Shown here piece after piece: positions 22,498 through 51,819 of a DNA stretch of 64,000 bases. The position numbers and the translations under genes are program-made. Positions within the stretch are counted from its first letter, which is position 1, and each line of letters begins with the position of its first letter. The DNA is taken from contig CANXME010002509.1 of NCBI GenBank assembly GCA_948144175.1, forward strand, positions 62,001-126,000. The letters run 5' to 3'. The notes under the pieces were generated by a model, which saw nothing but the letters and a program-made list of their open reading frames with translations, searched no databases and had not been told where the DNA came from. The DNA comes from Closterium sp. NIES-65 (taxonomy: Eukaryota > Streptophyta > Zygnematophyceae > Desmidiales > Closteriaceae).

Positions 22498-23285
22498 GGC
22501 ACGGGGTGTGTGGGTGCTGGACTCGCTGCTGATAGCCTGGTGCTGGTGGTGGGGCGTGACGCCAGTAGCCCTGCTGTAGAGCACATGGGTGAGGTGACAG
22601 GGCATGGGGCGTGCCAGTGTGGTGGTCGAGGTGTGCCAGTAAAGAAAAATCTCCTACACCAACGAAGCAACACAACGAAGGTGTAGACGACAAGCACGTC
22701 CGGTAAAAACCAGTCAAGATGGCTGAGGCTTACAACAAGAAGGGATGCGACGACGAGTATGATATGAAAGAAGAGTGCCCCAGAGCAGTAAGAAAACACC
22801 TTTAGATAAGATTTGAATGGAAACGGAGCCTTGAGGTGGATAAAACAAAAGGACCAGGCGGGCATTGAACCCCGCTAATCTTCTATGATTAGAGGTTTGT
22901 GCTACTGGTCCTGCGAAGACATTGTTTAGGTAAATTATATTGTTTGTTGTAAAAATCAGACATTGAGCGTTTACCTCGTTTGATCGGTAGCCATGGCCAT
23001 ACAATCGCACATGGGTCGCGGAAAGCGCGAGGCGGAGGGCAATCGGAGCGGTAATGGAGGTCGGGGGAAATCGAAGCGGCACAAGTCGCGATACCTGAAC
23101 GCTGTGAGCCTTTAAACTTATGTCGTGACGCATTAGTCAACATAAACCGCCGGCAGGCGTGTACCAATGTTTTTCTTGGCTGACAGACGAATAACGACGA
23201 TAATCAGCGACAATTCTGCAGGCGCGTTCAGTCGCGTTTCGGTCGCGAGTCGCAGCAGCATCCGTTGCGCGTCGCCGCTGCTATG
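22498..23285. repeat. Duplicated array flank F, copy 2
   Basis: Partner of 4306-5093. It again begins with the diverged exon-like phrase and the intact (empty) transposon target (GATAGCCTGGTGCTGG, 22531-22546). After 23285 it runs into the 5' region of a possible gene at 23493, whereas copy 1 runs into unrelated sequence. Confidence 0.88.
22851..22911 (-). pseudogene. tRNA-like relic, copy 2
   Basis: On - it starts GGACCAG and ends CTGGTCC, a perfect 7-bp acceptor stem. It holds the B-box match GGTTCAATGCC between GCGGG and CCCGC, and an inner CTAATC/GATTAG stem in the anticodon-arm position. At 61 nt it lacks a normal D arm and has an abnormal anticodon loop. A fragment of the same phrase (GGACCAGGCGGGTATCGCCC) recurs at 23345. 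It could be a tRNA-derived SINE head. Confidence 0.3.
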
Positions 23286-25023: not shown

Positions 25024-25524
25024 GTGGGTGCAGCAGAGCAGGTGAGTGGTGCAGCAGGGCAGGTGAGTGGTGCAGCAGAGCAGGTGAGTGGTGCAGCAGA
25101 GCAGGTGAGTGGTGCAGCAGAGCAGGTGAGTGGTGCAGCAGAGCAGGTGAGTGGTGCAGCAGAGCAGGTGAGTGGTGCAGCAGAGCAGGTGAGTGGTGCA
25201 GCAGAGCATGTGAGTGGTGCAGCAGAGCAGGTGAGTGGTGCAGCAGAGCAGGTGAGTGGTGCAGCAGAGCAGGTGAGTGGTGCAGCAGAGCAGGTGAGTG
25301 GTGCAGCAGAGCAGGTGAGTGGTGCGGCAGAGCAGGTGAGTGGTGCAGCAGAGCAGGTGAGTGGTGCAGCAGAGCAGGTGAGTGGTGCAGCAGAGCAGGT
25401 GAGTGGTGCAGCAGAGCAGGTGAGTGGTGCAGCAGAGCAGGTGAGTGGTGCAGCAGAGCAGGTGAGTGGTGCAGCAGAGCAGGTGAGTGGTGCAGCAGAG
25501 CAGGTGAGTGGTGCAGCAGAGCAG
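25024..25524 (+). repeat. 21-bp tandem array A3, about 24 copies
   Basis: The array starts at the donor of the exon at 24946-25023. The first unit is 18 bp (GTGGGTGCAGCAGAGCAG) and all later ones are the regular 21 bp, nearly all of the GCA type. It ends with the standard GAGCAG|GGCACGGGG border and is the only short array here, perhaps close to the ancestral state. Confidence 0.97.
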
Positions 25525-25565
25525 GGCACGGGGTGTGTGGGTGCTGGACTCGCTGCTGATAGCCT

Positions 25566-25577
25566 CGTCACAAAAAT
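25566..25577 (+). repeat. Left terminal inverted repeat
   Basis: CGTCACAAAAAT directly follows the target triplet CCT and the F-flank sequence GCTGCTGATAG. Confidence 0.85.
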
Positions 25578-26115
25578 CATATGACCAGAAACCTATTGTA
25601 AAAAGTTGTGGTGAAGTATTTTCAAATGCTTTTAAAACGTAGGGGCCAAAACGCTTTTCGGTGAAAGTATAAACATTTTTTCGAATGCTTTGTCGAATGC
25701 TTTGCAGGTGATGACATGTTTGTATTACCTTCAGATTAGGGTCTGTCTGAGTTTCTTCGGAGATGTATAAGACTTCGTTCGGAGAGTTCAGGGAGATTAC
25801 TTTCCACTCATATACTCTTTAGCAGAGCTTAGGACCAAAGTTCAAGAAGATTGTATATGAACCTTTATCAAGTGATTCTCGTTGTTTGATGGAAGGTCTA
25901 TTAGCCATTCTTAGGTGTACACGCACATCATGAATGCATTGCTCAATGATTATTAATCTCATTACAGAGTTGGCTTGGCACACAAAACAGCTGCCTAAAC
26001 ACGCGTTGCGTAGTCCTGCTAGGGTGGATTAATCTGCACCATCCTCCTACCTACTTCGCAAGCCATCATCGGATGCAGCCCCGCCCCATCTCTCCAGCTC
26101 TTGGCCTAGAGAGTT
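25578..26115. other. Left subterminal region of the transposon
   Basis: AT-richer than the surroundings, with no gene. It holds short direct motifs shared with the right end: TCGAATGCTTT at 25681 and 25693 (TCGAATGTTTT at 44764), plus AAACATTT and CAAATGCTTTT forms. Repeated subterminal motifs are the usual transposase-binding arrangement in EnSpm-like elements. The function here is inferred. Confidence 0.5.
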
Positions 26116-27036
26116 CTTGACTACAGATACTGCTCCATCTAATGCTAACCTGCACGGCTACACACTTCCTGTCTCCTCTCTTGCTTATACTCCTGTCCCC
26201 TTGCTGTCTCCACGCTGCTGCCCCCTATGCGGTCTCCTCTCATGCCTGCTCCTGCTGCTCCACATTGGGCCTCTCCTGGAACTCCCCTCTTACCTCCCGG
26301 CCTCCCCCCCCTGATGCTACTCATGCTGCCTCCACTGCTCCTCCACTACTGCCTCACATGCTGCCTCCACTGCTCCTCCGCCACCCAGGCAACCTGCAAA
26401 ACGGTCGCATATTAAATATGCACTCCTCCCCTACTGCCACGGGATGTTGCCTCCCCCCTGCTGCCATTCAATGTTGCCTCCCAAGCTGCCTCCCTTTGTT
26501 GTCTCCCCTGCTGCCATTCTAGTTGCCTCCCCTACCGCCTCCCTTTGTTGCCTCCCCTGCCCCTTTGTTGCCTCCCCTGCTGCCATTCTATGTTGCCTCC
26601 CATGCTGCCTCTCTCTGTTGTCTCGCCTGCTGCCATTCTATGTTGCCTCCCCTACTCCCTCTCTCTGTTGCCTACCCTGCTGCTATTTAATGTTGCCTCC
26701 CCTGCTGCCTCCCTTTGTTGCCTCCCCTGCTGCCATTCTATGTTGCCTCCCGTGGTGCCTTTCTCTGTTGCCTCCCCTGCTGTCATTCTATGTTGCCTTC
26801 CCTGCTCCCTCTCCCTGTTGCCTCCCGTGGTGCCTTTCTATGTTGCCTCCCCTGCTGCCTTTCCTTGTTGACTCTCGGCTTCTTACCCTTGTTGCCTATC
26901 CTGATGCCTTTCCTTTATCCATACCCGTTAAACGCCCCTGCTCTCCCCGTTAACCGATACCCTCCTGCCTCACCCGATGCCTCTCCAACTTCCTCCACTG
27001 CCACCCGTCCTGCTTGCCCCCTTGTCTGCCTGCACA
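26116..27036. repeat. TGTTGCCTCCCCTGCTGCC-type minisatellite downstream of the minus gene
   Basis: From about 26440 to 26880, irregular copies of TGTTGCCTCCCCTGCTGCC and CATTCTATGTTGCC alternate. No gene is seen. On - this lies 3' of the gene ending at 27037, so it is probably its 3' flank or untranslated region. Confidence 0.6.
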
Positions 27037-30000
27037 TCACTTTCCCCTCCTGCCACCCATGTTTTTGCCTCTCTTGTGCCTTCTGCTCCCTCTCAACTCC
27101 TTCCCCCCCTGCTCATCATCCTCCTCTTCCTCTTCCTCCTCTTCATCCTCCTCCTCATCCTCCTCATCCTCATCCTCCTCCTCCTCTTCCTCCTCTTCCT
27201 CCTCTTGCTCCTCCTCCTCTTGCTCCTCCTCCTCCTCCTCCTTCTCACTGAAATCCTCTTGCTCCTCCTCCTCCTCCTCCTCCTCCTCCTCCTCCTCCTC
27301 CTCGTTATCAGCCTGAGCCGTCCCCCGGAACGCCTGAAACCCGGACTCATGTACATAGAGCCCACGCGTGCCCCACTTGAAGCCCTGCAACTCTGCGTTG
27401 TACACGGGGGTGTGGCGTGTAAAGTGATCCCTTACAATCCTCCGCACCCCCCGAGTCAAACTCCTCATCCATCTAGTGTTTTTCTTGTGGGAGTTCGGCA
27501 GGTTCATGTCGGTCTCCTTGAAGCGCGCCAAGCCTTGATCAATCTGAAACGGGTTTGGATTACAGGGACCAGCAGCAAGGCAGAGTTGCATGTTACCGGT
27601 GTTAGCCCCCAAGGGTCCCAAGTCGTTCACGTGCAATAGAAAAGATTGAGCATTAGGGCAAGTACATGTGATTTACAAAACCAGTCTCACCACCATGAGT
27701 GACCAGGCTATGTGGTACGTCTTTAGGGCCAGCCTGCGCCCAACAGCGTAATCCCGAAATGATGCCTTCACCGCATCCACAAACCGGGCGTTGGCAAAAG
27801 GGAGCCCGGATCTGTCGTTCCCCCACGAGCTGACCCGCTCATTCCCTCCTACAAGGAGGCACAACCATGTGGGGAAGCACGGGGTATGTTTTATCATCAA
27901 GTAGTGGGGCAGGCAGTGTTTGGAGGTATGTTTGGGCATCGTAAGAAGGGGCAGGCCGGGCAGAGGGGTTTGGGTGAGGATCCTGTGGTGGGGCAGGCAG
28001 GGCAGAGGGGTTCGGGTTTAGGATCCTGAGGTGGGGCAGGCAGGGCAGAGGGGTTTGGGTGAGGATCCTGAGGTGGGGCAGGCAGGGCAGAGGGGTTTGG
28101 GTTTAGGGTCCTGAGGTGGGGCAGGCAGGGCAGAGGGGTTTGGGTGAGGATCCTGAGGTGGGGCAGGCAGGGCAGAGGGGTTTGGGTTTAGGATCCTGAG
28201 GTGGGGCAGGCAGGGCAGATGGGTTTGGGTGAGGATCCTGAGGTGGGGCAGGCAGGGCAGAGGGGTTTGGGTTTAGGATCCTGAGGTGGGGCAGGCAGGG
28301 CAGAGGGGTTTGTGTTTAGGATCCTGAGGTGGGGCAGGCAGGGCAGAGGGGTTTGGGTGAGGATCCTGAGGTGGGGCAGGCAGGGCAGAGGGGTTTGGGT
28401 TTAGGATCCTGAGGTGGGGCAGGCAGGGCAGAGGGGCTGGGGGTTAGGGTCCAAGTAGTGGGGCAGGCAGGACAGAGGGGTTTGGGTGAGGATCCTGAGG
28501 TGGGGCAGGCAGGGCAGAGGGGTTTGGGTTTAGGGTCCTGAGGTGGGGCAGGCAGGGCAGAGGGGTTTGGGTGAGGATCCTGAGGTGGGGCAGGCAGGGC
28601 AGAGGGGTTTGGGTTTAGGATCCTGAGGTGGGGCAGGCAGGGCAGAGGGGTTTGGGTTTAGGATCCTGAGGTGGGGCAGGCAGGGCAGAGGGGTTTGGGT
28701 GAGGATCCTGAGGTGGGGCAGGCAGGGCAGAGGGGTTTGAGTGAGGATCCTGAGGTGGGGCAGGCAGGGCAGAGGGGTTTGAGTGAGGATCCTGAGGTGG
28801 GGCAGGCAGGGCAGAGGGGTTGGGGTTTAGGATCCTGAGGTGGGGCAGGCAGGGCAGAGGGGTTTGGGTGAGGATCCTGAGGTGGGGCAGGCAGGGCAGA
28901 GGGGTTTGGGTGAGGATCCTGAGGTGGGGCAGGCAGGGCAGAGGGGTTTGGGTTTAGGATCCTGAGGTGGGGCAGGCAGGGCAGAGGGGTTTGAGTGAGG
29001 ATCCTGAGGTGGGGCAGGCAGGGCAGAGGGGTTTGGGTGAGGATCCTGAGGTGGGGCAGGCAGGGCAGAAGAGTTTGGGTTTACGATCCTGAGGTGGGGC
29101 AGGCAGGGCAGAGGGGTTTGGGCGAGGAACCTGCGGTGGGGAATGCAGGGCAGACGGGTTTGTGACCATGACATGATGGGGCCAGGTTTAGGAAATAAAA
29201 GTGCTATCTGAAAAGACAAAGGGAATGAGCAACGCGACGAAACCAACGTAGTTGCAGCGGGATAGCTGATTGTCAAGACTCACTCGGTTTGTATTTTCGC
29301 CACAACCTCCACTTCCTCTTCGTGCTCAGCTTGATCTGCGATGCACGCAGTCCCTCCACCTTCACTCCAAACTTCTCGAGCACACCGCGCTTGACTTGAA
29401 ATCCCCGTTCATTCTTCCATGCTGTCCACACACGTTTAAAGACGGCAACGACGTTCTGATCCTTCATTGTCTCTTTCAGCTGCATGTAAGAAATGATGTG
29501 GGTCTCACTGATGACGCCATACAGAACCTGTAGTCGCTGGTCAAATGATGGGTACCAGTCAACCGCATGGTCCGGCGCTTCCATGCACATCCGGTCCCGC
29601 GCCTCAACAAAATGAAGCTACAATGGACGGGATGGTAGGGCAAGAAGAAATCAGTGGCGAGGGGCAAGCATATCAAATGTGGGGCAGGCAGAGGGGGTTA
29701 TAATTAACAACCATGACAATGTGGGGCTGGCAAGGGGGTTACGAATGAGCAAGAACAGACGTAGTGCAGGCAGAGGGGGTTTGGAACGACATGCTGGACA
29801 ATGTGGGGCTAGCAAGGGGGGTTAACATGAGCATGAATAGCAAGATGCTAGCAGGGGGTTACGAATGAGCATGAAAGCAACGCAGAGTGCCCCTCACACT
29901 CACCCTCAGTTTCTCGAGAGTGGGCATTCCATGCCTGCGCCGAATGGGCTGGCCCTCTGTCGGGGTGCTCTCATCAGCTACCTCGGGACTGAGGCCCCCA

Positions 30001-32200
30001 GATGATGGGTCGCTCGCCAAAGGTGCCAGAGGAGGAACTTGGGAAGGGGGTCCGCGGTTTTTGACGCCATTGCAAGCTGGTTTTGCCTTGAGGGTTGCTA
30101 GTTCGCTGTTTGCTAGCTCAAGCTCTCGCGTGAGCTGCTCCACCGTCTTGGGGCGAGCCGGATTGAGACGACCAGATGCACCGGGCGTGCACATGCTCTC
30201 ACCCCTCCCCTCGTTCGTGTGTGGATCCCTTTTCCAGGTGTAGTCGTCGCCCCTTTCGTCACGTTCATCGTACGGAGAGCCAGCCATAACTCCGCCACAA
30301 TCACCCAATGTGTTTGCCCACATCCCACCTGCCACACCGTCGTTTGCTGCTGCGGCCGTTGGGTCAGCGTACCGTTTGGGCTTAAAGTCGTCTTTATCAA
30401 GATCCGGTGAATCCCGTGTCTCGAGACGCTTCGCAAGTGGGTCTTTTCCCTCCTTGTTATGACGCCATGACCCTGTAGGCAACGGGTCTGCTCCTTTCCC
30501 AGCATTTAGTGATGGCCCTCTGAGAGCAGCATAAGGGTCCTCGCGATCGTCACGCCTCCTTCGGGTCTGGTCTTTACGATCAAGATATCCAGTAGGAGCA
30601 GCAGTTGCTTTCACTCCCATCTCCGCATAGAATTCAGGCTCGGGCTTCACTTTGGGGCGCACACGGACAACCTGGGAAACCACACGCCGGCGACCGTTGT
30701 TGCCATGCGATTTCCCACGACTGTCGCGCCCCTTACGGCCCTTGTCCCGACCCTTGTCACGGTTCCTCTTAGGAATGCCCTTCTTGGCCTTCCGATCACG
30801 CCCCTTTCTCTTGGGACGCACCTCATCCGCCTCCTCGCTTTCCGGCTCCAGATCTTGGTCCTCACTCTCCTCCTCCTCCTCCTCCTCCTCCTCCTCCTCC
30901 TCGTCCCCATATTCGCTGCCAGATGAACTACCAGATTCCCCGTCGCTGGATCCCTCCTCGGAACCGGACGACGATCTGGGTGAAGCGTACCGTTTCCGTC
31001 CCTGGCGAGCCTTCCTCATTTTTCTGTCGTGACCGCCCGTGTCAACCACCTTGCGCCGCTTGTACGTGACTTCAGCCCCTCGTCCCTTACGCCCCCCATC
31101 ACTGTCGCCCTTAGTGCTTACAGCCCCTCGTCCCTTACGCTCCCTATCACTGTCGCCCTTAGTGCTTACAGCCCCTCGTCCCTTACGCTCCCCATCACTG
31201 TCGCCCTTAGTGCTTACAGCCCCTCGTCCCTTACGCTCCCCATCACTGTCGCCCTTAGCGCCTACAGCCCCTCGTCCCTTACGCTCCCCATCACTGTCGC
31301 CCTTAGCGCCTACAGCCCCTCGTCCCTTGCGCTCCCCATCACTGTCGCCCTTATCGCCTACAGCCCCTCGTCCCTTACGCTCCCCATCACTGTCGCCCTT
31401 AGCGCCTACAGCCCCTCGTCCCTTACGCTCCCCATCACTGTCGCCCTTAGCGCCTACAGCCCCTCGTCCCTTGCGCTCCCCATCACTGTCGCCCTTAGCG
31501 CCTACAGCCCCTCGTCCCTTGCGCTCCCCATCACTGTCGCCCTTAGCGCCTACAGCCCCTCGTCCCTTACCCTCCCCGTCTTTGGCAGGCCCAGACTGTA
31601 GCACGTCGTCGCCACCGGCCAATGCCACCTTATCCTGACGATGGAAAGAACTGCCCCTCTCCACCGCACTCCTCCCCTTCCTGCGCTTTGCTCTCGGACG
31701 GCAGTGACCCTTCTCTTCTGACCCGGCTGTGAAAAGCATAAAAAGAGAAAAATGAGTAGTCACATGTGACGTAAGCGGGATACGCGGTAACAACCTATAG
31801 GCATCCCAGAAATTACGCAAGGAGCCATATAATTGCTGGTGGGATCCGGTGAACACGTACCTTTCTGGCCTATTTTGGGGTTGCATTCTTCCAACTTCTT
31901 GATACGCCGTTCCCTCCGTTTCGGGGGCGATGAAATAGCCTTGTTTGCGTATGACTCCACATCGCCGTCACGGCTGGAGTCGTTTTCAGATGAAGAATCG
32001 CCCCCTGATTTGCTGTCGTTGCAAGCTTTGGACGGATGTCTCCTACGATACTCGTTGACGACTTGGGCCGTTTTCTCTGGTGTGACTACCTCCATATATC
32101 TCTTCTCATCTGGCGATTTGGTAGAACTAGGCAACTCAACAACCCCTACTTGCGCATTAAGGGTTTGAGCTTGAACTGTTGGATCTAGGTTCACACCCAT
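27037..32200 (-). CDS. Unrecognised 5-exon transposon gene; basic repeats, acidic tail
   Basis: Exons on -: 32200-31861, 31726-29904, 29617-29284, 27848-27691 and 27543-27037. All introns are GT-AG (donors GTACGT, GTGAGT, GTGAGT, GTGAGA) and phases 1, 0, 1, 0 close, giving about 1053 residues. Order: a Ser/Asp/Lys-rich N-terminus; about ten 16-residue repeats GRGAVGAKGDSDGERK; acidic and Arg/Lys-rich tracts; a short coiled-coil-like LTRELELANSELATLKA; then a more regular C-terminal part with WYPSFDQRLQVLYGV, KRKWRLWRKYK and HKKNTRWMRSLTRGVRR; then a Glu tail. I recognise no family. The last three exons look globular, the first two disordered. By position it is an element-encoded accessory protein, like the DNA-binding second product of EnSpm elements; that is inference. 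The start could instead be at 32263, but a GTGAGT at 32246 suggests splicing there. Confidence 0.65.
27947..29160 (-). repeat. 42-bp minisatellite in intron 3 of the minus gene, about 29 copies
   Basis: The unit is GAGGATCCTGAGGTGGGGCA, GGCAGGGCAGAGGGGTTTGG, GT; some copies have GTTTAGGATCC instead. It lies entirely between the donor at 29283 and the acceptor at 27849. On - it reads through as Pro/Cys-rich 14-residue repeats; the flanking splice sites and phase closure argue that this is intron. Confidence 0.9.
31072..31570 (-). repeat. 48-bp coding minisatellite, about ten copies
   Basis: Encodes GRGAVGAKGDSDGERK on -. The copies differ by few, mostly silent or Ala/Ser/Thr changes, and length stays a multiple of 48, so frame is kept as expected for a coding repeat. 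Confidence 0.85.
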
Positions 32201-32263
32201 GACGGGCGTGTTACGGAAGTTAGGAATTAGATAGTGACTTGACTCACCAGTGGATACTAGCAT

Positions 32264-33780
32264 TAAATGTCAGTTGGTTGCTGAGGTCCGAGTACCAGAC
32301 ACGGTGGTGGAGCAGGTGTACGTGATCCAACCACCACGTATGAGCAGCACCAGGCTGATGAGGGTTTGAACATGCGGTTTAGAGAAGCACGATGGTCCTT
32401 CGACATCCACCGCCTCTCCAGAGCACAGGTACATGGGCTGTTACTGTAGATGGGAAGAAGCTAGACGGTCACGGTCACAGGTAATGACGCTTTGGCCAGG
32501 TTTCCAGAAACTGCACTCGTGTTCGCGCCACTGACTGTATGGTCCGTTGGATACCTACGGCGCGCTGCTGATTGTTTTGCCGCTAAGTGCGAAAGGGACG
32601 GCCTATGATAAATAAACCAGCGGCAACGAGTGAGAGTTTGAACTGCCCGACTCCCTCGTGTTGCTGAATTACAGGCAACGCGACAGGTGCCGCACGTATA
32701 TTATCACAATAGTCACGTACCATGCCCGATGAGCAGCTGCGACTACTCATCGAACTACACGAGAGAGGGAAGGTGGGCTCGTGGTCGCACAACGTCGTGC
32801 AGCCACGTACAACAGGTCGACACAGCGTGATTGTGCAAGGGAACACCTGAAATCGCGGCGACGTGAGTCGCCGCACAGCGATTGCGACACGGTCGCAACG
32901 GCTCAGTGGTGTGATGAGCGCAGGTGTCGTAGGCGTGGGGTGTGAGGCGCATCCGAATTTCCAGCGCGTATAAACGCCTAGTCTCGCTATGCTACAGTAT
33001 TGGCATGTACTACCCTGTTCGAAATTGGGTGTATAATCGTCATGGAAATCCGCTCAATTGGTTCATAGAGTCCAGTCCTGCCTTTATATTCCATGGGGAC
33101 ACACTGGTTTTTAACTGTAAGGAAATTCCCTTTTCCTTACTTCGCGTCCCTGCTCAACGCGTACATCACTGTAGCACCTCAGTCAGCACCGTTACCACTC
33201 GCGACCATCGCATCATTCATCATCCCGCCCTTTTCGCACATCGCATCCCGACCTCACGGCTCGGCTGGTAACCCGCGCTCCGGGCCTACGCTTCGACACT
33301 TTCCCAACCTCAGTCCCAGGCTCGTCGCGCGACAACCACAGTCCAGTACCGTTACCACTATTGTTTCGCTATATAATCCTTCGCTCATGCCTTCGCTCAT
33401 TGTACTCTTGCTTCGATAGTGCAATTCTCGTTCGTTCACTCAATTGCACACGTAACATTAACAAATAACCAACACAAATATGTAGGATGCACACAGTGAT
33501 GTCGTTAATCGATTAAAATCTCTGCTCTATGCACCGTAGCTTAAATTTTGAACAGCCAAGCAATCCTGTCAAATTCACCGTTACAGTTTACTATGGGTTG
33601 TGATTATCTTCATGTATAGACGTGTGATTTTCATTACTGAAGAATAGCATGAAGACACGTGGTAACATGCAGCTGAGACAGTTGTTGATCTCCCTGGCAA
33701 AACAGCACATGCAAGCCAGTTGCCTTTTGCAAAGCTAGTCACTGGGACAAGGTCAATGTACTATGGCTGAGTGCAATGAC
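32264..33780. other. Intergenic stretch inside the transposon
   Basis: No convincing gene, repeat array or RNA was seen on either strand. Base composition is balanced. On - the stretch lies upstream of the unrecognised gene, so its promoter is expected near 32264-32500. Confidence 0.4.
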
Positions 33781-33784
33781 CAAG

Positions 33785-34130
33785 TCCACTTTCCATTATG
33801 TGCACCTCTCCGTAATCTGCACCTCTACAACCTCTGCAACTCTTTGTTCACTACCTCACCCAGTCCACTGCACCTCTCCATTCGCTAAACCTCTCCCTTC
33901 CCTGCACCTCTCCGTTCCCTGCACCTCTCCGTTCTCTGCCCCTCTCCTCCGTCCTCTGCACCTCTCCGTCCGCTGCACCTCTCCGTTCTTTGCACCTCTC
34001 CATTCTCTGCACCTCTCCGTTCTCTGCACCTCTCCGTTCTCTGCACCTCTCCGTCCTCTACACCTCTCGTTTCTCTGCACCTCTCCGTTCTCAGCACCTC
34101 TCCGTCCTCTACACCTCCTTGTTCTCTATC
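33785..34130 (+). repeat. 17-18-bp pyrimidine minisatellite
   Basis: Irregular copies of CACCTCTCCGTTCTCTG, about eighteen in all. No coding support. Confidence 0.8.
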
Positions 34131-34228
34131 CAGTTGGTCCACAAGACCACATTCGCCGGACATTATTCATCTGCCATATCTCCTGCCCGTTTATCCATAC
34201 TTTATCGACAAGTTCATCCCACTGACAG

Positions 34229-34314
34229 GCTGCCTAAGAAACCAAGGTGTATACAAGGAGGAGGTAGCGAGGCTTAACAAGAGAGTTGACTGCTGGGTCA
34301 TCATCAATAACAAG
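34229..34314 (+). CDS. Possible orphan exon on +
   Basis: An acceptor-like CATCCCACTGACAG and a donor AAG|GTGCGC enclose 86 bp open in one phase, reading CLRNQGVYKEEVARLNKRVD then CWVIINNK. No partner exon was found and the downstream sequence is repeat. It might belong to an unseen + gene or be chance. Confidence 0.2.
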
Positions 34315-34324
34315 GTGCGCCTCT

Positions 34325-34780
34325 CATACCGACATCACGTGCCGCAAGTGCCACACATGCCTCACATGCCTCACGTGCCTCACACGCCTCACATGAATAC
34401 ATGCCACCACGATACCTCACCCGATGCCACACATGCCACTCATGCCTCACGTGCCTCACATGCCTCACGTGCCTCAGATTTATCACGTGCCTCACATGCC
34501 ACACGTGCCTCACGGGAGTCACCTGAGCTCCGCCTCCCATGCCTCGTATGCCTCACATGCATCACATGTCAGCACAATGCCCCACATGCCACTCATGCCT
34601 CACGTGCCTCGCATGCCTCACGTGCCTCACATGTCCCGTCGTGCATCATGTTCCTCACATGAGCTCTGCCTCTCATGCCTCGTATACCTCGTATGCCTCA
34701 CATGCCGGCTCGATGCATCACATGCCTCAAACACCTCACACGCCATTCATGCCCCACGTGCTTCACATGCCTCCTCTTCC
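34325..34780 (+). repeat. 9-bp CACATGCCT/CACGTGCCT repeat
   Basis: Long run of CCTCACATG and CCTCACGTG words, many of which create CACGTG (E-box/G-box core) and CATG. It lies just 3' of the Ulp1 gene on -. A (TCC)n tract follows at 34766-34870 and supplies the Glu-rich tail codons of that gene. Confidence 0.85.
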
Positions 34781-34815
34781 TCCTCCTCCACCTCTTCCTC
34801 CTACTCCTCCTCCAC

Positions 34816-35953
34816 CTACTCCACTACATCCGCCTGCACCTTCTCATCCTCCTCATCCACCTCCTCCTCCTGGTTTCGAGGTTGGTTCAACGCATTTTCG
34901 AGGAAGAAGACAGACCACTTCTTCAGGTCGCGAAGGTACTGACGGCGCCACTTACTCGGTGTACCAACAAGCTTACACGCACCCAGGTTATGGAACTTGT
35001 TTTCAACAAGTGTGTGCATCACGCGCATCGTGAACACACCGCAGTCATTCTCATTAGTCTGCGACGGAATCTGTCAACACACATTCGCACATGCACGTGG
35101 CTGTCAAAAGGTGGGTCGTTGATTGAGAGCTGGCATTTAAGACAACGGGATCAGAGGTCACCTTGACGACGCGCAGAGGGATGCTCGCAGCCCAAGCATC
35201 TGCGTCCGAATCAAGGATCCAAGTTGAGACCCTCATAACCTCGTTTCTTAAGTACCTGAATGACGGAGCACAAATGGAAGATTAGAGATCGGGCTTCTAC
35301 GATAGAATGCACACCCATGACGTCCTCTGACAGTACCTTCGCAAAGGCGCGTCCACGGATTCGTGGGATCCGTACGAATCCGCATGCCAGAGAACGCAGG
35401 TCATGGGTATGTTCTCATCTGGTTTGGGGATTATCTCAATGACGACCAAGCTCCAATGATACCTACAACAAGCGATGAGCGAGTATCTGTCAGAAATAGT
35501 CGTTGATCAAAATTATGACTGGAATTCAAGCGATTGACACCCACTCGCTGTTGATCGGGACGAGAATATAGTTGTAGTCGAATATCCCCAGCCCAAAAAG
35601 ATGGGCGTTACCCCGCTTCGCAATGTCCCTTCCAGCGTAGTTCCAGAAGTAGGATCCACTGTACAGCCACATCTTGTTGTCGCGACTGTGCTCATATTGA
35701 AGCATCCTGTGGTTGTTGAAACATAACGCATTATAAGCGTCTTAGACCTACAAAGTAGTCCTACTCTGGCTTCTCACGAAATTAAACTCATAACTCACAC
35801 TCCCAGCCAGTCGATGACGATTCCGGTCACCCATTCTCCGGGTTTAAGCTTATTAGCGTGTTCCTCACTGACGTCTAGCCACGCTCCGCCAAATGGGAAA
35901 GGCATTGAAATCGGGTGAAAGGGAAAATCACAAGCTGCATCTCGTGAAGCCAT
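34816..35953 (-). CDS. Ulp1/SENP-type (C48) cysteine peptidase of the transposon
   Basis: Exons on -: 35953-35799, 35706-35545, 35462-35337, 35255-35162 and 35070-34816. Phases 2, 2, 2, 0 close and give 263 residues. The fold runs in order: WLDVSEEHANKLKPGEWVTG (entry helix, residue 25 on), VIDWLGVMLQYEH, then ILVPINSE-YHWSLVVIE with catalytic His108, HADSYGSH with Asp134, and IPSQTNENDCGVF with oxyanion-hole Gln183 and nucleophile Cys189. The Gln-Cys spacing of six is that of Ulp1. All four catalytic residues are present, so an active SUMO or ubiquitin-like protease is expected. The C-terminus is a Glu-rich tail partly made by a TCC repeat. The ATG at 35953 has a good context and an upstream stop; further 5' exons cannot be excluded. 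Ulp1-type peptidases are known passengers of several DNA transposon groups. It is divergently placed to the transposase. Confidence 0.88.
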
Positions 35954-36896
35954 GGAATGGAATCACCTACGAGCTGGCGGTACTGGAGATTCAGATCGTC
36001 ATGCAACGGAGTGTGTTCTGGCTGCTGGTGCTATCCCTGGAACTGTGTGAGCTCTCTGGTGTATGGGGGGTTGAAGAGGCATCGCCCAATGATGTGGTTC
36101 CGCAACACAGTTTCGACACCCACGTTTCGGTGCTGCCTTTGGGTCCGTCAGATTCCAAATGACGTGGACTGACATGAACGCGGATGGTTGCTAACGCTTG
36201 ATTGCCTCCCTTCACTAGTGACTGATTCTGATTCTCGCTGGTCTGGAATGCCCAGTCAGCTGTGGTCCAAGAATTGTGCGCTCCAATGTTTCCGGAATTA
36301 GCTCGAGAAACACGTAGATCCAGCACGATGAGACTCTTTTCAACGGTCGGATTTTTGAGACGAAATGCAGTTTGGTCGATTAGGGTTCATCACCCTGCCT
36401 GGGCTTGAGCAACACATGACGTAATCATACGTGATTGGTTGGAATTTTAGGGTTGTCAGAATCACTTCCGGGTTTGGTGTTTCGCCACCCACCACGTCAA
36501 CCCTGCACACTCGACATCCAGTATGCTGTAGTGTCCAGATATTTTTAGGTGTCTAGGGAGTTGCGGAACACTATTAACCCCACGGTGACTGTCTTCGCAC
36601 ACCACACGGTTACCTTCGTGATCCGCTAAACATCAAATTTTCATACCGTGGAGCTGCTCATTCGCCTTTGCAATGCGGGGTGGAGTAGGTTCTCACGCTA
36701 AGTAACATATTTCTTGTGAACCCTTTTCATTTCCAGAGCCAGCCCGGGTATGTTTGTTGGGACAGATTCCCTCCATCCATGACATGCTGCTGGACGTAGA
36801 TTTCAATGTTGACACCATCTCGACAGTAATACGTTGGTGCTATATCTCATGAAAGGCACAAGCTCCCTACGTAACTCACAACATCACGTTTGAAAA
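35954..36896. promoter_or_regulatory. Divergent intergenic region between peptidase and transposase genes
   Basis: The 943 bp lie between two start codons on opposite strands, so a shared or paired promoter is expected. I see no clear TATA box or repeat. A - frame at 35991-36326 is open but lacks recognisable content and might hold an upstream exon of the peptidase gene. Confidence 0.4.
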
Positions 36897-39800
36897 ATGA
36901 AGGGTCAAAAGTGCGACAGTGGCGATGTCTTCTTCTGCTATCAGACCCTTCGAAGCCACCAATCCAATGGCGATAAGTGCAAGCTGACGCAGAAGAGAAA
37001 GTTGCGTTTAAAACAGTCGAGCCAGAAGCATAAAAAGCTTGGAGCCGCTTCGGATTCCGTCCCCGTTTTGCTGCCTGCACCGCTTCCCCGACCCAATCTG
37101 CAGTTACCATTGACGGAAACCGCTTACAGAGTAGTTCCCATCTCAGAAAAACCTGGACAGTCTGCTGAGGCGCCTTGCGAAAGTACCCTTGAGGTGGTAT
37201 CGGATGACGATGAAGAGCCCGTTGATCTTAAGGCTGAAGTATGCATTCTGGCACGGAAACACGGGCTTACGAATGGGGCCATAACTGACCTTATAGATAT
37301 CTTCAGGATCCCGGGCATTAGTGTTGAACAGTTAGAAGGCTGGACGACTTACAGGGACCTTGAGAAGTACGAAAGCAGCTTCGAGTTGGGGCCGGAGCAT
37401 TCTTGGCAAGTGGCTGAGATCCCTGTGGATCATGAAGTGGGATTCCTCACCTTCAGATTTCGCAATATTAACGTGGTGTGTCTCACGCTGTTCTCTCTGT
37501 TTGTGTTACTCGCCCAAGTTAATTCTGCCGCACCCCTCACCAGTCGCGTATCTTAGTCAACAACTCATTGAATGGCATCTACCTTACGAACCAATGAAAC
37601 AATGCTCTTTCCGATCTGCAGTTGGCACAGGTGATGTTCAAGAAGATGTCCGCAGTACGCGGATTCATCATCAAGCCGAAGGAGTGGAAGGTGGAGGGTG
37701 AAAGACGCTACAGCACGCCTGGCAATACTGACTGGATGCTTAACGCGTGGGTTAGTGAGCATCTAAAGCTCGAAGTCATTGACCTCTGTCGCCCCTCGCT
37801 CTTGATCTCGGTCCTCCCCCCCTTGCTCTCAGACCTCCGCCCGATCGCCGGGTTTGTACTCTGATCTCCGCCGTTTGCTCACTGGAATCCGCCCGTTTCA
37901 CTCAGACCTATCGCCCTTTTCTCTCTTAGATCCGCCGTTTGATCGCTCATCTCCGCCATGTGATCGCTCATCCCCGCCATTTGCTCTCTGATCTACACGG
38001 TTTGCTCGCTGATCTCCGCCCTTTCCTCTCTCCTTTCTCCGCACTTTGCTCGCTGATCTCCGCCGTTTGCTCACGGACTCTCCGCCCCTTGCTCGCTCAT
38101 CTCCGCCGTTTGCTCTCTGATCTACGCCGTTGCTCGCTGATCCGCCCTTTGCCCTATGATCTCCCGCCCTTTCCTCTCTCTGATCTCAAGCCCTTCCTCT
38201 CTCTGATCCTCCTCCTCTTTCCTCTCTCTGATCACCGCCCTTTTTCTCTCTCCGATCTCCAGCACTTTGCTCGCTCATCTCAGCCCTTTGCCCTCTAGTC
38301 TCCCGCCCTTTGCCCCATGATCTCCGCCCTTTCCCCTCTGATCTCCGCACTTTGCTCGTTGATCTCCCCCCTGCGCTTTCAGGTCTCCGCCCATTTCTGT
38401 CTGATCTCCCGCAATTTGCCCTCTATCTCCCGCCCTTTCCTCTGTGATCTCCGCGGTTTGCACGCTGAAATCCTCCCGTTTCACTCCGACCCCTCGCCCT
38501 TATCCCTCTTAGCTCCGTCATTTGCTCTCTGACCTTCGCCCTTTGCTCTCTGATCTCCGTGTTTAGCCCTCTGATCTCTCCCGCCCTTTACAGGACCGCG
38601 TCCGTAAGGTCGGTGCAATCGTGTTGGCGATCATCCTCTATTCGGATCAAACCAACCTGTCCTACAATGGTAGGCAATCAGCACACCCCTTCGTGTTGTC
38701 ATTCGGTAACACACCGGAATGGGCGCGTTGGTTGGAAGGCGGCACCGAGCTGTTGGGGCTCTTCCCTAACATCCCCTCCGACCTGAAGCCAGAGGAGAAG
38801 ATTAGGGTGTTCCAACTGGCGGCGGAATACATGCTACAGCCTCTGAAGTCTCTTTCCAAGCTCCGCGGGTACGCTGCCCTTAAAGTTCTTCTACAAACGT
38901 GAAAAGATGTCATAGCTTCGTAGAGTCTCCTTGCCATGTATTGCATCAGTGGTTATTTGGAGTGCACATTCTGGTCCCGTTACGCCCGACCCCTTTAAAC
39001 ATTGCTTTCGTGCTCTCAGTCCTGATTTCCTCACCCCAAAGCCACCAACATGGCATGATTTCATGTTTGGTCGCGCAGCGGGGGCTTGAAGGTGGAGGAC
39101 AGCAACGGGGTTGAGTACGTGGCCATCCCGCTGCTGTACTCAGTCGTGAACGACCATCCAGAGTCCAACAAGGTTTCGTGCACCATGTCATGTAGCTCCT
39201 TCCGACCTTGCTCCATCTGCATGGTCACGAGAGATAATCTTCGCGACGTGGATGACGAGATCGTTCCACGTACCGTCCGAGATCAAAAAGCTGTGTACAA
39301 GAAAATGGAGGGAGCGGAAACCAAGAAGGAACTGAACCGTCTGAAGAAGAAGTATTCGACCCACTTCGTTAAGGTACCGCTATTGATTGTGTGCGTACGT
39401 TTGTATGGTTCCGTGGTACCATGGTCCCACCCCCGTTCACCTTCCCATGCAATTGGTTGTAAGATCAGTTTCTCCCCTGCCCACTTCTCCTTTGTGCATC
39501 GCGAGCTCACAAACACCCCCTCCAACTAAACTCCCGTCCCCCTCCCTCTTAGGCTGGAGGTGGACACCTCGCCGTGTACCACCCTTGCTGTCCAAGGGTG
39601 AGTCTGTCCACGTGAGTCATTCCTGGCCCCCTTTCCCACCCTGATCCTTCAGGCCCCCTTTTTCTCGTTCCCCTCCCCTTTGCTGCCAGTCCTTGCTGTG
39701 GGATTGGGAGTTCTCCAAAACCTCGTGGGGCAACACGTATCTCGCCCAAACACCCGACATCATGCACATTATCGAGGCAGGGCTCTGGCTTCATGCAATG

Positions 39801-40616
39801 AGGTGCCTCGTGAAGAAATTGAAACCCTCAGAACGGAAGATACTTCTCGAGTAAGTTTCCCTTACACCACTGTGGGGCGCGGGTCATAAGGGCAAGAGAG
39901 AGGAGCATCGAGGGGGAACCAGAGGCAGAGAGAGGGAAAGAGGGGCAACGAGAGGGAATATGGCACCAAGAGAGAGCGGGAGAGGGGCAGAGAGAGGGAA
40001 TTCGGGGCATATATATGGAAAGATGGGCAGCCAGAGGGAAAGATGGGCAGAGGGATGGATGGAGGGGCAGATATAAGTACTTGCGGGGCAAAGAGAAGGC
40101 AGGAGGGGCAGAGTGTAGTGACTTCGGGGCAGAGTGAGAGAAGGAAGGGCGTGAAGAGGGAATGAGGGGCAAATAGAGGGGGAGAGTGGGGCAGAGAGAG
40201 GGGTAGTGGGGCAGCGAGAGGTATGCTGGGGCAGAGAGAGGGTAGGAGGGGCAGATGGATGGAAGGATGGGCAAATAGAAGTGACTTCGGGGCGGAGTGA
40301 GAGAAGGCGGGGCGTGAGAGAAGGCGGGGCGTGAGAGAAGGCGGGGCGTGAGAGAAGGCGGGGCGTGACCGAAGGCGGGGCGTGACCGAAGGCGGGGCGT
40401 GAGAGAAGGCGGGGCGTGACAGAAGGCGGGGCGTGAGAGAAGGCGGGGCGTGAGAGAAGGCGGGGCGTGAGAGAAGGCGGGGCGTGAGAGAAGGCGGGGC
40501 GTGAGAGACGGCGGGGCGTGAGAGAAGGCGGGGCGTGAGAGAAGGCGGGGCGTGAGAGAAGGCGGGGCGATGGAGGGGTAGCGTGGTGGAATGCCGGGCG
40601 GAGAGCATGCAGGAGG

Positions 40617-40650
<34 letters not shown>

Positions 40651-43600
40651 CGAGGCAGAGAGAGAGGGTGGGGCGTGATGAGGGAATGAGTGTCAGAGGA
40701 AGGTGCATGTGGGGCAAAGAGAGGGAAAGTGGGGCAGAGAAAGGGACAGTGGGGAAGAGAGAAGGAATTTGGGGCTGAGAGACCGAAGGAGGGGCGGAGA
40801 GAGGGAAGGAGGGGCGGAGAGAGGTGAGAGCGGGGCATAGGGAAGTGGGCATAGAGAGGGAAACAGACTCCGCGAAGGAGGAATGCAGGGTAGAGGGAGG
40901 GTAAGAGACGAAGCCAAGAAGGAATGCGCGGTAGAGAGAGGGATAGCGACGGAGTGAAGGAGGGTCATAACGAGGGAAGGAGGGTCAGAGAGAGGTGAAT
41001 GCGGGGCATAGAGAAGTGAACTCGGGGCATAGGGAGGGCAGGAGAGGAATGAAGGGGGAAATTTGGGAATAGAGAAAGGGAGATTGGGGCAGAGAGAGGG
41101 CAAGTGGGTAAGAGTGAGGCAAATTGGGGCAGAGAAAGGGAACGAGGGGCGGAGCGAGGTGATCATGTGGCAGAGAGTGGGAACGAGGGTCAGAGAGAGG
41201 AAGGGTGGGGCATAGAGTATGGGAGAGAGGGGCAGAGGGGGGGAAAGTGAGGCAGTGAGAGAGAAAGTGGGGAGATGAGGGTGCGATTGGATGCACCTAA
41301 CTACTCCCCCCCCCCCTTCACCCGTCCCTTGCTCGCCCGCCTGCCCCCCTCCCTCCCCCTTCCCCCCCTGCCCCACACCCCCATAACCGATACCCTGATT
41401 GCATCCCGTACGTGCAGACGCTACAAGATCATCAAGGCAGTGACCCCTGCATCTTTGCTGAGGCTCCCATCCGCGTGGGCGTACTTCACCACGACGGCCT
41501 GCTTCTCGGCGTCGGAGCACCGTGCCATGATGCAAGTGCTGCCCCTCATTATTGACCTCCCCAAGCGCGCCGATATTCGACATGCCATCACGCTCATGTC
41601 GGACTGGTACAAGGAGTTCATCCGGGCTGAGTATCACACTGATGAATCTCTCGAGCGCATGGAGGAGGTCTCCTGCGAGTAAGTCTAGTGTGAATGGATG
41701 TGCGTTCCTTGCGCAGAGGGAAAGAGGGACAGAGCGAGGATCGAGGGGCTGAAAGAGGGACTAAGGGGCCGTGTGTGGGAAATGGGGGCTGAGAAACGGG
41801 GACAGCGGGCAAAGTTTGTGAAAGAAGGGCAAAGAGAGAGAAAGAATGGAAAAGAGAGGGAAAGAGGGCAGAGTGAGGGAACGAGGGGCCGAAAGAGGGG
41901 AAAGGGGGGGCAGAGATAGGGAAGGATGGATGAGAGAGGGATAGAGGGGCTGAGAGAGGGAACGAGGGGCTGAGAGAGGGAACAAGGGGCTGAGAGAGGG
42001 AACGAGGGGCTGAGAGAGGGAACGAGGGGCTGAGAGAGGGAACGAGGGGCTGAGATAGGGAACGAGGGGCTGAGAGAGGGTACGAGGGGCTGAGAGAGGG
42101 AACGAGGGGCTGAGAGAGGGAACGAGGGGCTGAGAGAGGGAACGAGGGGCTGAGATAGGGAACGAGGGGCTGAGAGAGGGAACGAGGGGCTGAGATAGGG
42201 AACGAGGGGCTGAGATAGGGAACGAGGGGCTGAGAGAGGGAACGAGGGGCTGAGAGAGGGAACGAGGGGCTGAGAGAGGGAACGAGGGGCTGAGAGAGGG
42301 AACGAGGGGCTGAGAGAGGGAATGAGGGGCTGAGAGAGGCATCGAGGGGCTGAGAGAGGCAACGAGGGGCTGAGAGAGGCAACGAGGGGCATAGAGAGAA
42401 GAGGAGGGGCACAGAGTGAGGGAATGGAGGGGCAATTAGAAGGAAGGAGGGGATGAGAGAGGGGGGGGGGGAGGATATGAGAGGAGGGGGGAGGGGATGA
42501 AAAAAGGCGGAAAGGCATGAGAGAGGGGAGGAGGGGATGTGAGAGGGTATGAGGCACAGTAAACCCCTCCATACCACCCCACTGCGCCAACCCCGTATCT
42601 TCCAATCCTCCATAACACATTCCATACAGGATGGTCGATGCGCTTGTTCTAGCGTTCGACAACCAGAAGTCGAAGTGGTTTATTGTGAAGGTACATCTTG
42701 TATCGCACCTGCCACCGACGATCCGCGCACGCGGATTGCCACAGGAGTACTCGTCGAACCGGTACGAGCAATCCCACAAGACAACAGTAAAGCGCCCATC
42801 TCGGGGCACCAACTGGAAGGGTGTGGAAGATAGGATTGTGAAGAAGCATGTCGAGCAAGCTGTTGTTCGACAGCTGTCTCGGGCTGCCGGCGGGGACAAA
42901 ACCTACGAGACAGCCATGAAGGAGGTGAGACTGAATACAACCCAAAGCCGTTTCAATCCACCACTTGTCCCCCCTTGCTCCAACCGCCGACTACCCTCCA
43001 TGACCTCCTGTTTTAAAGCTAAACCTTGCCTATCCTCTTGAGCCCCGCTGGCCCTTACCCGACTACCATAAACTTATGACATCCCGTTCTGCACTCCCAT
43101 GCTCCCCCACGGGGCCTCACATGGATGTTTAACCCGTTGCCCCCTCTTGTCATCTCTTAAATGCCCCCAGATGCTTCCCCATTAGTCCACCCACCAACCT
43201 TCGTCTTGCTGCCCCTCTTGACATCCCGTTCTGCCCCCACATGCTTCCCCACTTGTCCACCCACCGACCTTCCTCCTGCTGCCCCTCTTTGCTTCCCGTT
43301 CTGTCGCCTACATGCTTCCCCACTTGTCCACCGACCAACCATCTTCTTGCTGCCCCTCTTGACATCCCATTCTGCCCCCACATGCTCCCCCACTTGTCCA
43401 CCCACCAAGTGTCCTCGTGCTGCCCCCCTTGACATCCCGTTCTGCTCTCAAAAGATCCCCCGCTTGTCCACCCATGAACCTAAACCCTCCTGCTATACCC
43501 CTCGCCCACTCGAACTTCCCACCCTTGCTCCACCACTGGCTAAACCATCCAGCCCATCTTTGTAATTCGTTGAGCCCCCCCCCCCGCTTGGCACTTGTCC

Positions 43601-44517
43601 CCCTATTCACATGCCTACTGTTGCTGCCCCCTCTGACCTCTCGTACTGCCCCCTATTCCCACCCACTCGTCCCTAATCACTGCTCCCTCCTCCTGTTGTC
43701 CCCATTGCACTTCAATTGCTGCCTTGTTATGCCGCCATGTAAACCATGCATCCATCACCTTCCTACCCAGGCTTGCACGCTTGGGCGCCAAGTGATGACA
43801 AAGACACACAAGAAGATGACCGTGGGGAACATCCTCGATGATGTATTCAGGAGCTACGTCCTCCTTCACGGAGATGAAGCGATGGGCGCCCTGAAGAAGC
43901 GGCTGACCATGGAGGGAATCCGCGAACAAGTGCTCAGTGTGAGAATCATAAGATTGCCCCCTGCAATGCAGACCTGCCACTACCATCCTGTTAAACGCAA
44001 GCAGTCTTAGACCAGTTGTAATGGGAAAACCCAGCCATGGAAACCCGTTGTATCAACGCACCACTTAGCAACTCATCCTTGAGAAATCTAACACGACCCT
44101 TCCATTGTTTTGTTGCGTTCCATGTTTGTTTACTCGCAGGTGCACACAGCCATGGCAATCCCACCGCACGACAGAATGGAGTGGACCGAGAAGGGGCAGT
44201 TTGTCAAAGCAAGCCCTGCTGAGAGGCACTTTTCAGATGTGGCCATAAACCCATCTGGCAAAGGGGCCAACTGGTACGGCCGTTGCTTGATGCTGTTCCA
44301 TTACGTGAAAGATGGCGTGGCAAAAAAGGCCGCCTACATAGAGTACTACACGGAGGATCGGCGCATCTGCCGCTACACAGGCTGCAAGCGACTGCTGCCC
44401 ACGAAGGGCACTTACAACTATGCAGTTGTAGATGCAGATTGCATTCTTAGCATCGTGCATGTCGTCCCATGCTGCAAAGACCCTGATGTGAAGCTCCTCA
44501 ATAGGTTCATCTGGTAA
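36897..44517 (+). CDS. Plavaka-type transposase, ten exons
   Basis: Exons: 36897-37475, 37622-37750, 38594-38868, 39079-39373, 39553-39597, 39690-39850, 41418-41678, 42630-42924, 43771-43938 and 44140-44517. All borders are GT-AG, all phases agree, and there are 861 residues plus TAA. Landmarks: partial zinc-finger start (C6, F12, L18, H21, C27); ILYSDQTNLS with Asp254 and HPFVLSFGNTPEWAR; IPLLYSVVNDHPES with Asp353, then C-x2-C at 372/375; HPCCP; DIMHIIEAGLWLHAMRCLV (464 on); FSASEHRAMMQVLPLII (524 on); VKVHLVSHLPPTIRARG with EYSSNRYEQSHK (601-632); C-terminal LLNRFIW. This succession (YSD.T, D..E, zinc knuckle, MH..E.G, E-x-RAM, K.H...H, E..H) is that of Plavaka transposases, an RNase H-fold DDE family related to EnSpm/CACTA. 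Assigning Asp254 and Asp353 as catalytic is inference. An exon upstream of the ATG is possible. Confidence 0.85.
37790..38590 (+). repeat. Pyrimidine minisatellite in transposase intron 2
   Basis: Degenerate 19-20-bp copies of TTGCTCTCTGATCTCCGCC fill almost the whole intron (37751-38593). Confidence 0.85.
39890..41280 (+). repeat. Purine minisatellites in transposase intron 6
   Basis: Irregular GAGGGGCAGAGAGAGGGAA-like copies flank a regular 17-bp array GAGAAGGCGGGGCGTGA (about 40300-40570, some 16 copies). A (GA)n tract lies at 40622-40650. The - strand reading frames here are Ser/Pro-rich artefacts. Confidence 0.88.
41930..42400 (+). repeat. 20-bp purine minisatellite in transposase intron 7
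   Basis: About 23 copies of GAACGAGGGGCTGAGAGAGG, very uniform, inside the intron 41679-42629. The composition is the same as in intron 6 but the unit length differs. Confidence 0.92.
43150..43450 (+). repeat. 68-70-bp repeat in transposase intron 8
   Basis: Four to five copies containing CATGCTTCCCCACTTGTCCA and CTTGACATCCCGTTCTGCC, inside the intron 42925-43770. Confidence 0.88.
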
Positions 44518-44786
44518 TGCCTTCAAAATTGCGACTGTTTTTCTAGACTATAACATCGTATAATTGTGATACTCCTATTCATGAAGCCTTATGTATTGTC
44601 TCAACAAACAACATTTGACACATCAACCATCAAAACATTGGTAATCCATTACTAAAACATCAACAAAACATTTGGGTAGTACAAAATGATATCCGAATGA
44701 TATGTAGATGATTTCTGAAAGATTGTCAAACGTTTTTTAAACCCTTGGTAACAAACCAAACGGTCGAATGTTTTCTAGACACACAC
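44518..44786. other. Right subterminal region of the transposon
   Basis: AT-rich and without a gene. It repeats AAAACATT, CAAACGTTTTTT and TCGAATGTTTT, words shared with the left end in either orientation, as expected for transposase-binding subterminal repeats. It also holds the 3' end of the transposase transcript. Confidence 0.5.
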
Positions 44787-44798
44787 ATTTTTGTGATG
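44787..44798 (-). repeat. Right terminal inverted repeat
   Basis: Reads CATCACAAAAAT on -, followed outward by the target triplet GCT and the F-flank sequence GGTGCTGGTGGTGGGG. Confidence 0.85.
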
Positions 44799-45119
44799 GC
44801 TGGTGCTGGTGGTGGGGAGTGACGCCAGCAGCCGTGCAGCAGGGGAAGCGAGTGAGGTGGCAGGTCATGAGGGTGTTGGTCTGGTGTTGAGGTGTGGTTT
44901 GAGATGACTCCTGAACATGCTGCTTGTGCTGCTGGTGGGTAGTGACGCCAGTAGCCCTGCTGCAGAGGATGTGTGTGAGAGGGCATGGGGGTGTTGGTCT
45001 AGTGCTTGATTTGATGTGTGGTGTGAGGATGGGGCAGGTTTCACACAACAGGTCGGCGCATGAGGCATGCCGTGTCGGTGAGTGTTAGTAGGTCAGCAAT
45101 GGGCCCTTGTTTTGACCTT
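44799..45119. other. Diverged F-type flank right of the transposon
   Basis: It contains two copies, about 130 bp apart (44802 and 44932), of the phrase GCTGGTGGTGGGGAGTGACG or its GGGTAGTGACG variant, and two copies of GAGGGTGTTGGTCTGGTG. It is the continuation of the locus interrupted at 25565, and it abuts D1' at 45120. Confidence 0.7.
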
Positions 45120-51100: not shown

Positions 51101-51819
51101 CGAATAGGTTTCGCTCGTCAGCTGTGCCCAAAACGAGAACAGCAAAACAGTATCTTGCAAAACTACAGCTTTCCACATGGCAGTAAACAGAATTGATTTT
51201 GCTGATTTACAAGCTACACATGTTAGTTGACAAATCTATTTGTGTAATCTGGAGCTTATGCATGTAGGTCAACAAATCAATGACAAATTAGCTCTGGAAT
51301 AATGAGCTGAATATTAAGGAACGTGCGCATCTGCATGCGTATACGCATGAAAACTCGCATGTCTGGTACCTACCTGTTTAACCTAGATGCGCGTAGACAT
51401 ACGTATGCATGCGTACGTATGCCTTCATGCACGTAGTGCGTCTACCTACCGTACACACTCGTACGCGACGCATATGTACATAACCGTACATGCACCAACG
51501 CGTACGCACTCGTACGACCGACCTTTTTCTTTGCCCGCGCAAAGAGAGCCGTTGATATCGTCTCGCCGGGGACAATCTCTCTTGCTCGACTGATCGTCAA
51601 GTGTGACCGATTTTCGCCATTCAGCACCGTGGTTACGCCAACAGATTGATTGGTTGGATGCTGACCGGGACAAGCTTCACTTCCACCATTGGGCTGGGAT
51701 AGAAAGAGAGAGACACGAAGGGCAGCGAGCGACATAGAGGGAGTGATGGAGGTGCAAGGAAGAGAAAGGGTGTTGAGCCTCAGTTGTTAAGGAGGTTTAG
51801 GGGGTGCAGAGATGCCCGA
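45120..51819. repeat. Segmental duplication D1' (partner 9664-16875)
   Basis: Same order and orientation as D1 and mostly identical base for base, with scattered substitutions and shorter microsatellites. It lacks the roughly 230-bp block at 10070-10300 of D1. No gene is recognised. It leads into array A4 with the same border as D1 into A2. Confidence 0.93.
47596..49648 (+). repeat. 40-bp minisatellite in D1', about 51 copies
   Basis: Counterpart of 12491-14704. Long runs of units follow the same variant order in both copies, with a few units gained or lost, so most of the array predates the segmental duplication. Confidence 0.95.

Follow-up and report, generated by a model that had tools for sequence, protein, structure and literature searches.

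Evidence for a complete 19.2-kb transposon in the zygnematophyte Closterium sp. NIES-65, member of a young Plavaka family that carries a Ulp1-like gene

The 64,000-nucleotide stretch of Closterium sp. NIES-65 DNA that we have analysed (hereafter the window, corresponding to C2211:62001-126000 of a genome of 874 Mb in 2400 contigs) contains at 25566..44798 an element of 19,233 bp, without assigned strand, which we consider with a probability of about 94% to be a complete member of a young, multicopy, cut-and-paste Plavaka family with ends like those of PlavakaB. We read it in this way because its ends are repeated in the genome, the family shows 2-bp target duplications and true empty counterparts, long copies of it are nearly identical, and its transposase bears the Plavaka domain of Pfam (PF18759) together with the acidic and C(2)C positions of this group. 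The host belongs to the Zygnematophyceae, within Streptophyta, and so is indeed of the green lineage, as had been surmised in an earlier reading of the bare sequence (hereafter the original prediction).

The ends of the element recur at many unrelated sites of the genome. Its left terminal inverted repeat, CGTCACAAAAAT (25566..25577, plus strand), and its right one (44787..44798, minus strand, on which it reads CATCACAAAAAT) are each 12 bp long and identical at 11 of 12 positions, as originally predicted, and they form the only exact pair in the window: CRTCACAAAAAT is matched exactly twice, both times at the element ends, and once more with one mismatch, three matches in all where 0.14 would be expected by chance. 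Across the family the termini are CATCACAAAAAT...ATTTTTGTGATG, hence CATCAC..GTGATG, while the window copy ends in CGTCA..TGATG; the earlier description of a whole, large element with ends other than CACTA is supported. Among 28 left ends read, 20 have CATCACAAAAAT and eight the CG form, CGTCACAAAAAT, the latter representing three distinct sites, namely the window copy with five siblings sharing its flank, C321 and C2377. Since the C2377 copy lies between an exact CC duplication, it would seem that elements with the CG end have themselves transposed. On the right side, CATCACAAAAAT was read on the minus strand in all 18 ends found in the 20 stretches examined and in 11 of 11 ends of a second reading. 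Of the 17 diverged relatives fetched, left and right ends together, 16 have CATCACAAAAAT unchanged. Two diverged right ends lie back to back, about 65 bp apart, near 264927-264992 of G000:C595.

Close to the termini we have tentatively annotated three AATGCTTT motifs on the plus strand (25625..25703, at 25625, 25684 and 25696) and three AAAACATT/AATGTTTT motifs on the minus strand (44632..44774). In the common form AATGYTTT the element has no copies besides these six, none of which is more than 170 bp from an end, and six copies are reached in 5 of 1000 shuffles. Diverged relatives retain one copy or more in nine of nine left ends, and none is present in six of eight diverged right ends. The motifs may tentatively be regarded as candidate binding sites for the transposase.

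Searching the genome with the first 301 bp of the element returned, among 40 scored matches, at least 28 copies of 100% identity (rounded) over at least 299 of the 301 bp, and the last 300 bp returned, among 41 matches, at least 33 copies of 99-100% identity plus eight of 73-77%; these counts are lower bounds. Within 40 kb of 26 of the 29 listed left ends lies a right end of matching orientation, copies with identical flanks being included in this number, and 24 of these 26 pairs span 18.9-22.8 kb, the two longer ones measuring 27.4 and 34.4 kb. Three left ends and seven of the 33 right ends are unpaired. The longest pair, at G000:C1871:1941188-1975613, has its 34.4 kb flanked by CA/CA and perhaps represents an element with something inserted inside it. 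Other copies with the same ends are therefore present as predicted, the genome having at least 26 paired copies, while the 3-bp duplications predicted to accompany them were seen at none of 20 sites.

These 20 sites are distinct ones in which both ends were read, copies sharing a flank having been merged (C164 with C511:1350728 and C2112 with C863, whose flanks are identical over the 100-1200 bases compared) and the table of duplications compiled by hand. An exact 2-bp duplication surrounds the element in 16 of them, for which the chance is about 2e-16 at 1/16 per site. The four sites without it are the window group (CT/GC), the C863 group (AG/GC), C321 (GT/TG) and C1769:2725794 (GT/GG). Further evidence comes from the copy on C1596, the flanks of which, when joined after removal of one AC, are identical to C1769:2908677 and C1769:2186997 at 300 of 300 bases (100%) and 99% identical to a further two places over 298 bases; correspondingly, the filled site aligns with the joined flanks as two halves overlapping by exactly 2 bases. 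The join leaves open a leucine-rich frame of 99 codons, for which the LRR families of Pfam score under their cut-off. This empty site fixes both the ends of the element and its 2-bp duplication.

What, then, is the CCT/GCT that flanks the window copy and was originally taken for a 3-bp duplication, with the uninterrupted target preserved at two places in the same window? The left flank (25027..25565, plus strand) consists of the terminal part of an array of a 21-bp satellite and of a tail, GGCACGGG...GATAGCCT, the final 20 bases of which are identical in six of the 28 left ends read. The two proposed targets (4339..4354 and 22531..22546, plus strand) do carry the 16-bp GATAGCCTGGTGCTGG exactly, and the joined flanks of the element agree with them, save for three extra bases, for no fewer than 58 bases to the left of the join and 18 to its right, before diverging. 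A simple insertion with a 3-bp duplication into a site still empty at 4339 and 22531 would account for such exact copies and for flanks that differ near the join by just three extra bases over some 76 bp; we nevertheless hold it to be very improbable and have rejected it. Besides the lack of 3-bp duplications among the 20 sites, the right flank (44799..45040, plus strand) is the second half-repeat of a host unit, whereas both look-alike sites lie in the first half-repeat, from which the right flank soon diverges (74-76% identity over query positions 1-286).

The genome search with the joined flanks makes the arrangement clear. It gave 71 matches, in which the right flank is 100% identical in eight (the filled sites), 97-99% in 32 and weaker, 74-76%, in 31, and none of the 71 spans query positions 1-300 at high identity. 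Five of the 32 were fetched as uninterrupted host repeats, and in all five the left flank (50 of 50 bases) continues into the first half-repeat, the right flank following 146-152 bp downstream, in the second half-repeat, with 118-119 of 120 bases identical. In the host repeat, then, the two flanks of the window element do not adjoin one another, so that those of this copy are either hybrid or have undergone deletion; what looked like a CCT/GCT duplication reflects the likeness of the half-repeats, and since the right flank belongs to the second of these, the element did not enter at 4339 or 22531. Homologous empty sites with different breakpoints thus exist for the window copy, in five of five host repeats, while the C1596 copy has true empty relatives. 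Half-repeats, in other words, can mimic an empty site.

How did the element come to lie between two points of the host repeat that are about 150 bp apart? Most likely, recombination between element copies residing in different repeat units would have brought the two flanks together, a flanking deletion being the alternative. One form of the latter, in which the transposase itself removed the approximately 150 bp in an adjacent deletion ending at the left terminus, would explain why the missing segment stops exactly at the element; we judge it unlikely, given the other sites that lack a duplication. The right flank of C1769:2725794 is that of C1769:2846766 (99.9% over 1500 bp), while their left flanks are unrelated (257 of 1000 positions alike), which points to an exchange. 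In the C863 group, the join is spanned by none of 62 matches, and in four uninterrupted places the right-flank sequence occurs 557-562 bp before the left-flank sequence, a reversed order that deletion cannot produce. Both cases fit exchange between element copies better than deletion. This second group lacking a duplication comprises G000:C863, C2112, C1984 and C1722, with one common pair of flanks in reversed host order.

The satellite-associated host repeat that carries the element was subsequently amplified. The same insertion with the same flanks as at 25566-44798 of the window is seen on G000:C1788, C1227, C530 and C472, and C1788 has four right ends with the window-type flank within about 105 kb; the recurrence of this flank there and on further contigs indicates that the host repeat was amplified with the element inside. 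Within the window, 12635-22498 and 47581-57433 (about 9.9 kb each) are 96.7% alike. They take in a 40-bp satellite and the 21-bp satellite GGTGAGTGGTGCGGCAGAGCA together with spacer, and another array extends as far as the window end.

Turning to the genes, the Plavaka transposase is encoded on the plus strand at 36897..44517 in exons separated by GT-AG introns with closing phases: exons 1-4 at 36897-37475, 37622-37750, 38594-38868 and 39079-39373, a doubtful exon 5 at 39553-39597, exons 6-7 at 39690-39850 and 41418-41678, and exons 8-10 at 42630-42924, 43771-43938 and 44140-44517. The original prediction of three spliced genes, one of them giving an 861-residue product, agrees with the GT-AG introns and closing phases seen in all three genes and can be read as such, except that a protein of 846 residues now appears likelier: the 45-nt exon 5 is missing from both Closterium relatives that span it (P0002 and P0003) and from three other spanning Plavaka frames in the NIES-65 genome, the frame closes without it, and its 15 residues are perhaps false. 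The same exon encodes HLAVYH, which fits the printed H(4)H spacing and is the only place where an H(3-4)H pattern, as described in the pertinent part of the literature, was seen; elsewhere H423 and H452 occur without that spacing, and the pattern was not found in the other Closterium Plavaka frames aligned.

Pfam assigns the transposase to Plavaka (PF18759) with an E value of 4.2e-21 and 75.9 bits against a cut-off of 26.3, no other family being reported at E values up to 1, so that the predicted Plavaka type, related to CMC/EnSpm, is supported by the profile. That the element might instead be of EnSpm/CACTA or KDZ type has in its favour the relatedness of Plavaka transposases to EnSpm, at least as stated in the part of the literature that concerns them, but is highly improbable in view of this exclusive match, of termini (CATCAC..GTGATG) that are neither CACTA nor CAC..GTG and of a 2-bp duplication where 8 bp are printed for Zisupton in the pertinent passage. 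In 846-residue numbering, the window protein shares D254, D353, C372, C375, H423, H514 and R515 with other Closterium Plavaka; the C(2)C motif is C372-x2-C375, between D353 and E513. E513 is present in five of the six rows with a letter at that position, the exception being the L069 row, which has strayed into unrelated sequence, and the SDET of other Closterium Plavaka is SDQT in the window transposase. Relatives 61-76% identical were found in Closterium NIES-67/68, including one of 72% in NIES-68 and one of 70% in NIES-67; two transposase searches returned Closterium proteins exclusively, one of them being a profile search for distant relatives that scored the 7994 candidates with the most words in common and gave six proteins. 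Structure prediction from five sequences had a mean pLDDT of 30.

The second gene (34816..35953, minus strand) has five exons, the start of the first being uncertain, and encodes a Ulp1/SENP-like cysteine protease of 263 residues. It has the C48 peptidase domain PF02902 (5.5e-11) and the motifs HWSLVVI, HADSYGS and QTNENDCGVF, and its alignment with SENP2 (1tgz), at 9.8e-7, covers the HWSLVVI, D and Q..DCG stretches; we take the H, D, Q and C at these positions to be the catalytic residues. The third gene (27037..32263, minus strand) has five predicted exons and a product of 1069 residues that matched no Pfam family. Its best relative, a Closterium sp. NIES-65 protein, is 99% identical over 42% of the 431 residues searched; it starts at a Met just before exon 2 and agrees to the end of that exon before entering the modelled intron. 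A relative from Naga37s-1, 45% identical over 772 aligned positions, runs through the exon joins 2/3 (with five extra residues) and 3/4, both comparison proteins being gene predictions like our exon model. A 42-bp minisatellite at 27948-29162, in an intron of the third gene, appears longer in both other complete copies.

Two of the 26 pairs (C2251 and C511:783432) were read as complete copies besides that of the window. All three frames are open in C2251, and so are the two accompanying ones in C511:783432, where the transposase has a stop at codon 607; the full set is therefore whole in the window copy and in one of the two others, and the element may be autonomous, as was originally suggested. 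Each of these two transposases differs from that of the window by seven codons, all nonsynonymous, and hence purifying selection within the family does not show. For exons 7-10, 20 stretches were examined and six incomplete ones dropped; 13 of the remaining 14, some of which have a common flank, are open and six equal the consensus. Counting the window, 14 distinct codon changes were seen, four of them synonymous (29% vs 23% expected), a proportion such as neutral drift would give following a recent burst.

Whether the protease and the third gene serve the element is a separate question. They could be host genes trapped by chance and without a role in transposition, since transduplicated Ulp1-like domains are reported for plant CACTA and MULE elements in the relevant part of PMC2528002. 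We find this rather doubtful: both genes are open in two of two other complete copies, indels in the third gene preserve its frame, and the third protein has its 45% identical relative in another strain. The transposase itself would probably bind the 12-bp ends, and perhaps also the subterminal AATGYTTT motifs, after which its D, D and E residues would excise the element and insert it with a 2-bp stagger, by analogy with the Plavaka/CMC group; the Ulp1-like protease, we would guess, could deSUMOylate the transposase or silencing proteins, and the third protein might help at the ends or in regulation, which is likewise a guess.

Compared with known systems, the family most resembles PlavakaB of fungi (Agaricomycotina), for which the pertinent part of Kojima (2025; PMC12730594) gives ends of CATCA..TGATG and duplications of 2 or 3 bp. 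It shares such ends (CATCA at 20 of 28 left ends and TGATG at all right ends found, the window copy having CGTCA), the 2-bp duplications and a Plavaka transposase; it differs from PlavakaB as there described in its zygnematophyte host, in its many introns and size of about 19-20 kb and in bearing a Ulp1-like and a third gene instead of TET/JBP, for which no Pfam match was found in the three proteins or in ten further long frames of the element. According to the relevant portion of PMC12633428, the green alga Auxenochlorella has potentially active EnSpm-Plavaka elements, likened to ours by description as cut-and-paste Plavaka of the green lineage. The giant Plavaka repeats of Amoebidium are similarly large and have a transposase accompanied by other genes, but differ in their tandem clusters, intron-poor genes, size of up to 50 kb and many tyrosine recombinases (PMC11244446, in its section on these repeats). 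Plant CACTA elements with ULP1 are also of the CMC group and bear an Ulp1-like domain, the difference being their EnSpm-type transposase, Tnp2 (PMC2528002, same part).

These likenesses weaken the original suggestion of a new lineage should the element prove uncatalogued, as the ends and 2-bp duplications are those described for PlavakaB and Plavaka is already reported, in the portion of the literature cited, from a green alga; what is new is that a zygnematophyte harbours a young family of Plavaka elements bearing a Ulp1-like gene. Our literature search for Plavaka combined with Ulp1 found nothing, subscription journals and Repbase lying outside its scope, so that a catalogued entry is possible; among the matches listed for Closterium transposons (titles and beginnings of abstracts) none concerned Plavaka, nor does Plavaka occur in the main text available for the article on the Closterium genome (PMC10407611). 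On balance, we lean somewhat towards regarding the family as a distinct green-lineage branch of Plavaka, with its own SUMO protease and third conserved gene, that was mobile very recently and was also multiplied passively in a recombining satellite-associated repeat.

In evolutionary terms, a well-bounded and recently active Plavaka family, with defined ends, duplications, empty sites and genes, is thus available in the algal class that is sister to land plants. The host strains are cultured and crossed, and the movement of Plavaka would be open to direct tests, as would the question of why unrelated transposons retain Ulp1-like proteases. Genome-wide, the Plavaka domain is matched at least 133 times, with many of these matches in long open frames; ten such places were fetched and seven aligned, and several of the ten have a C2H2-like N-terminus as judged by eye.
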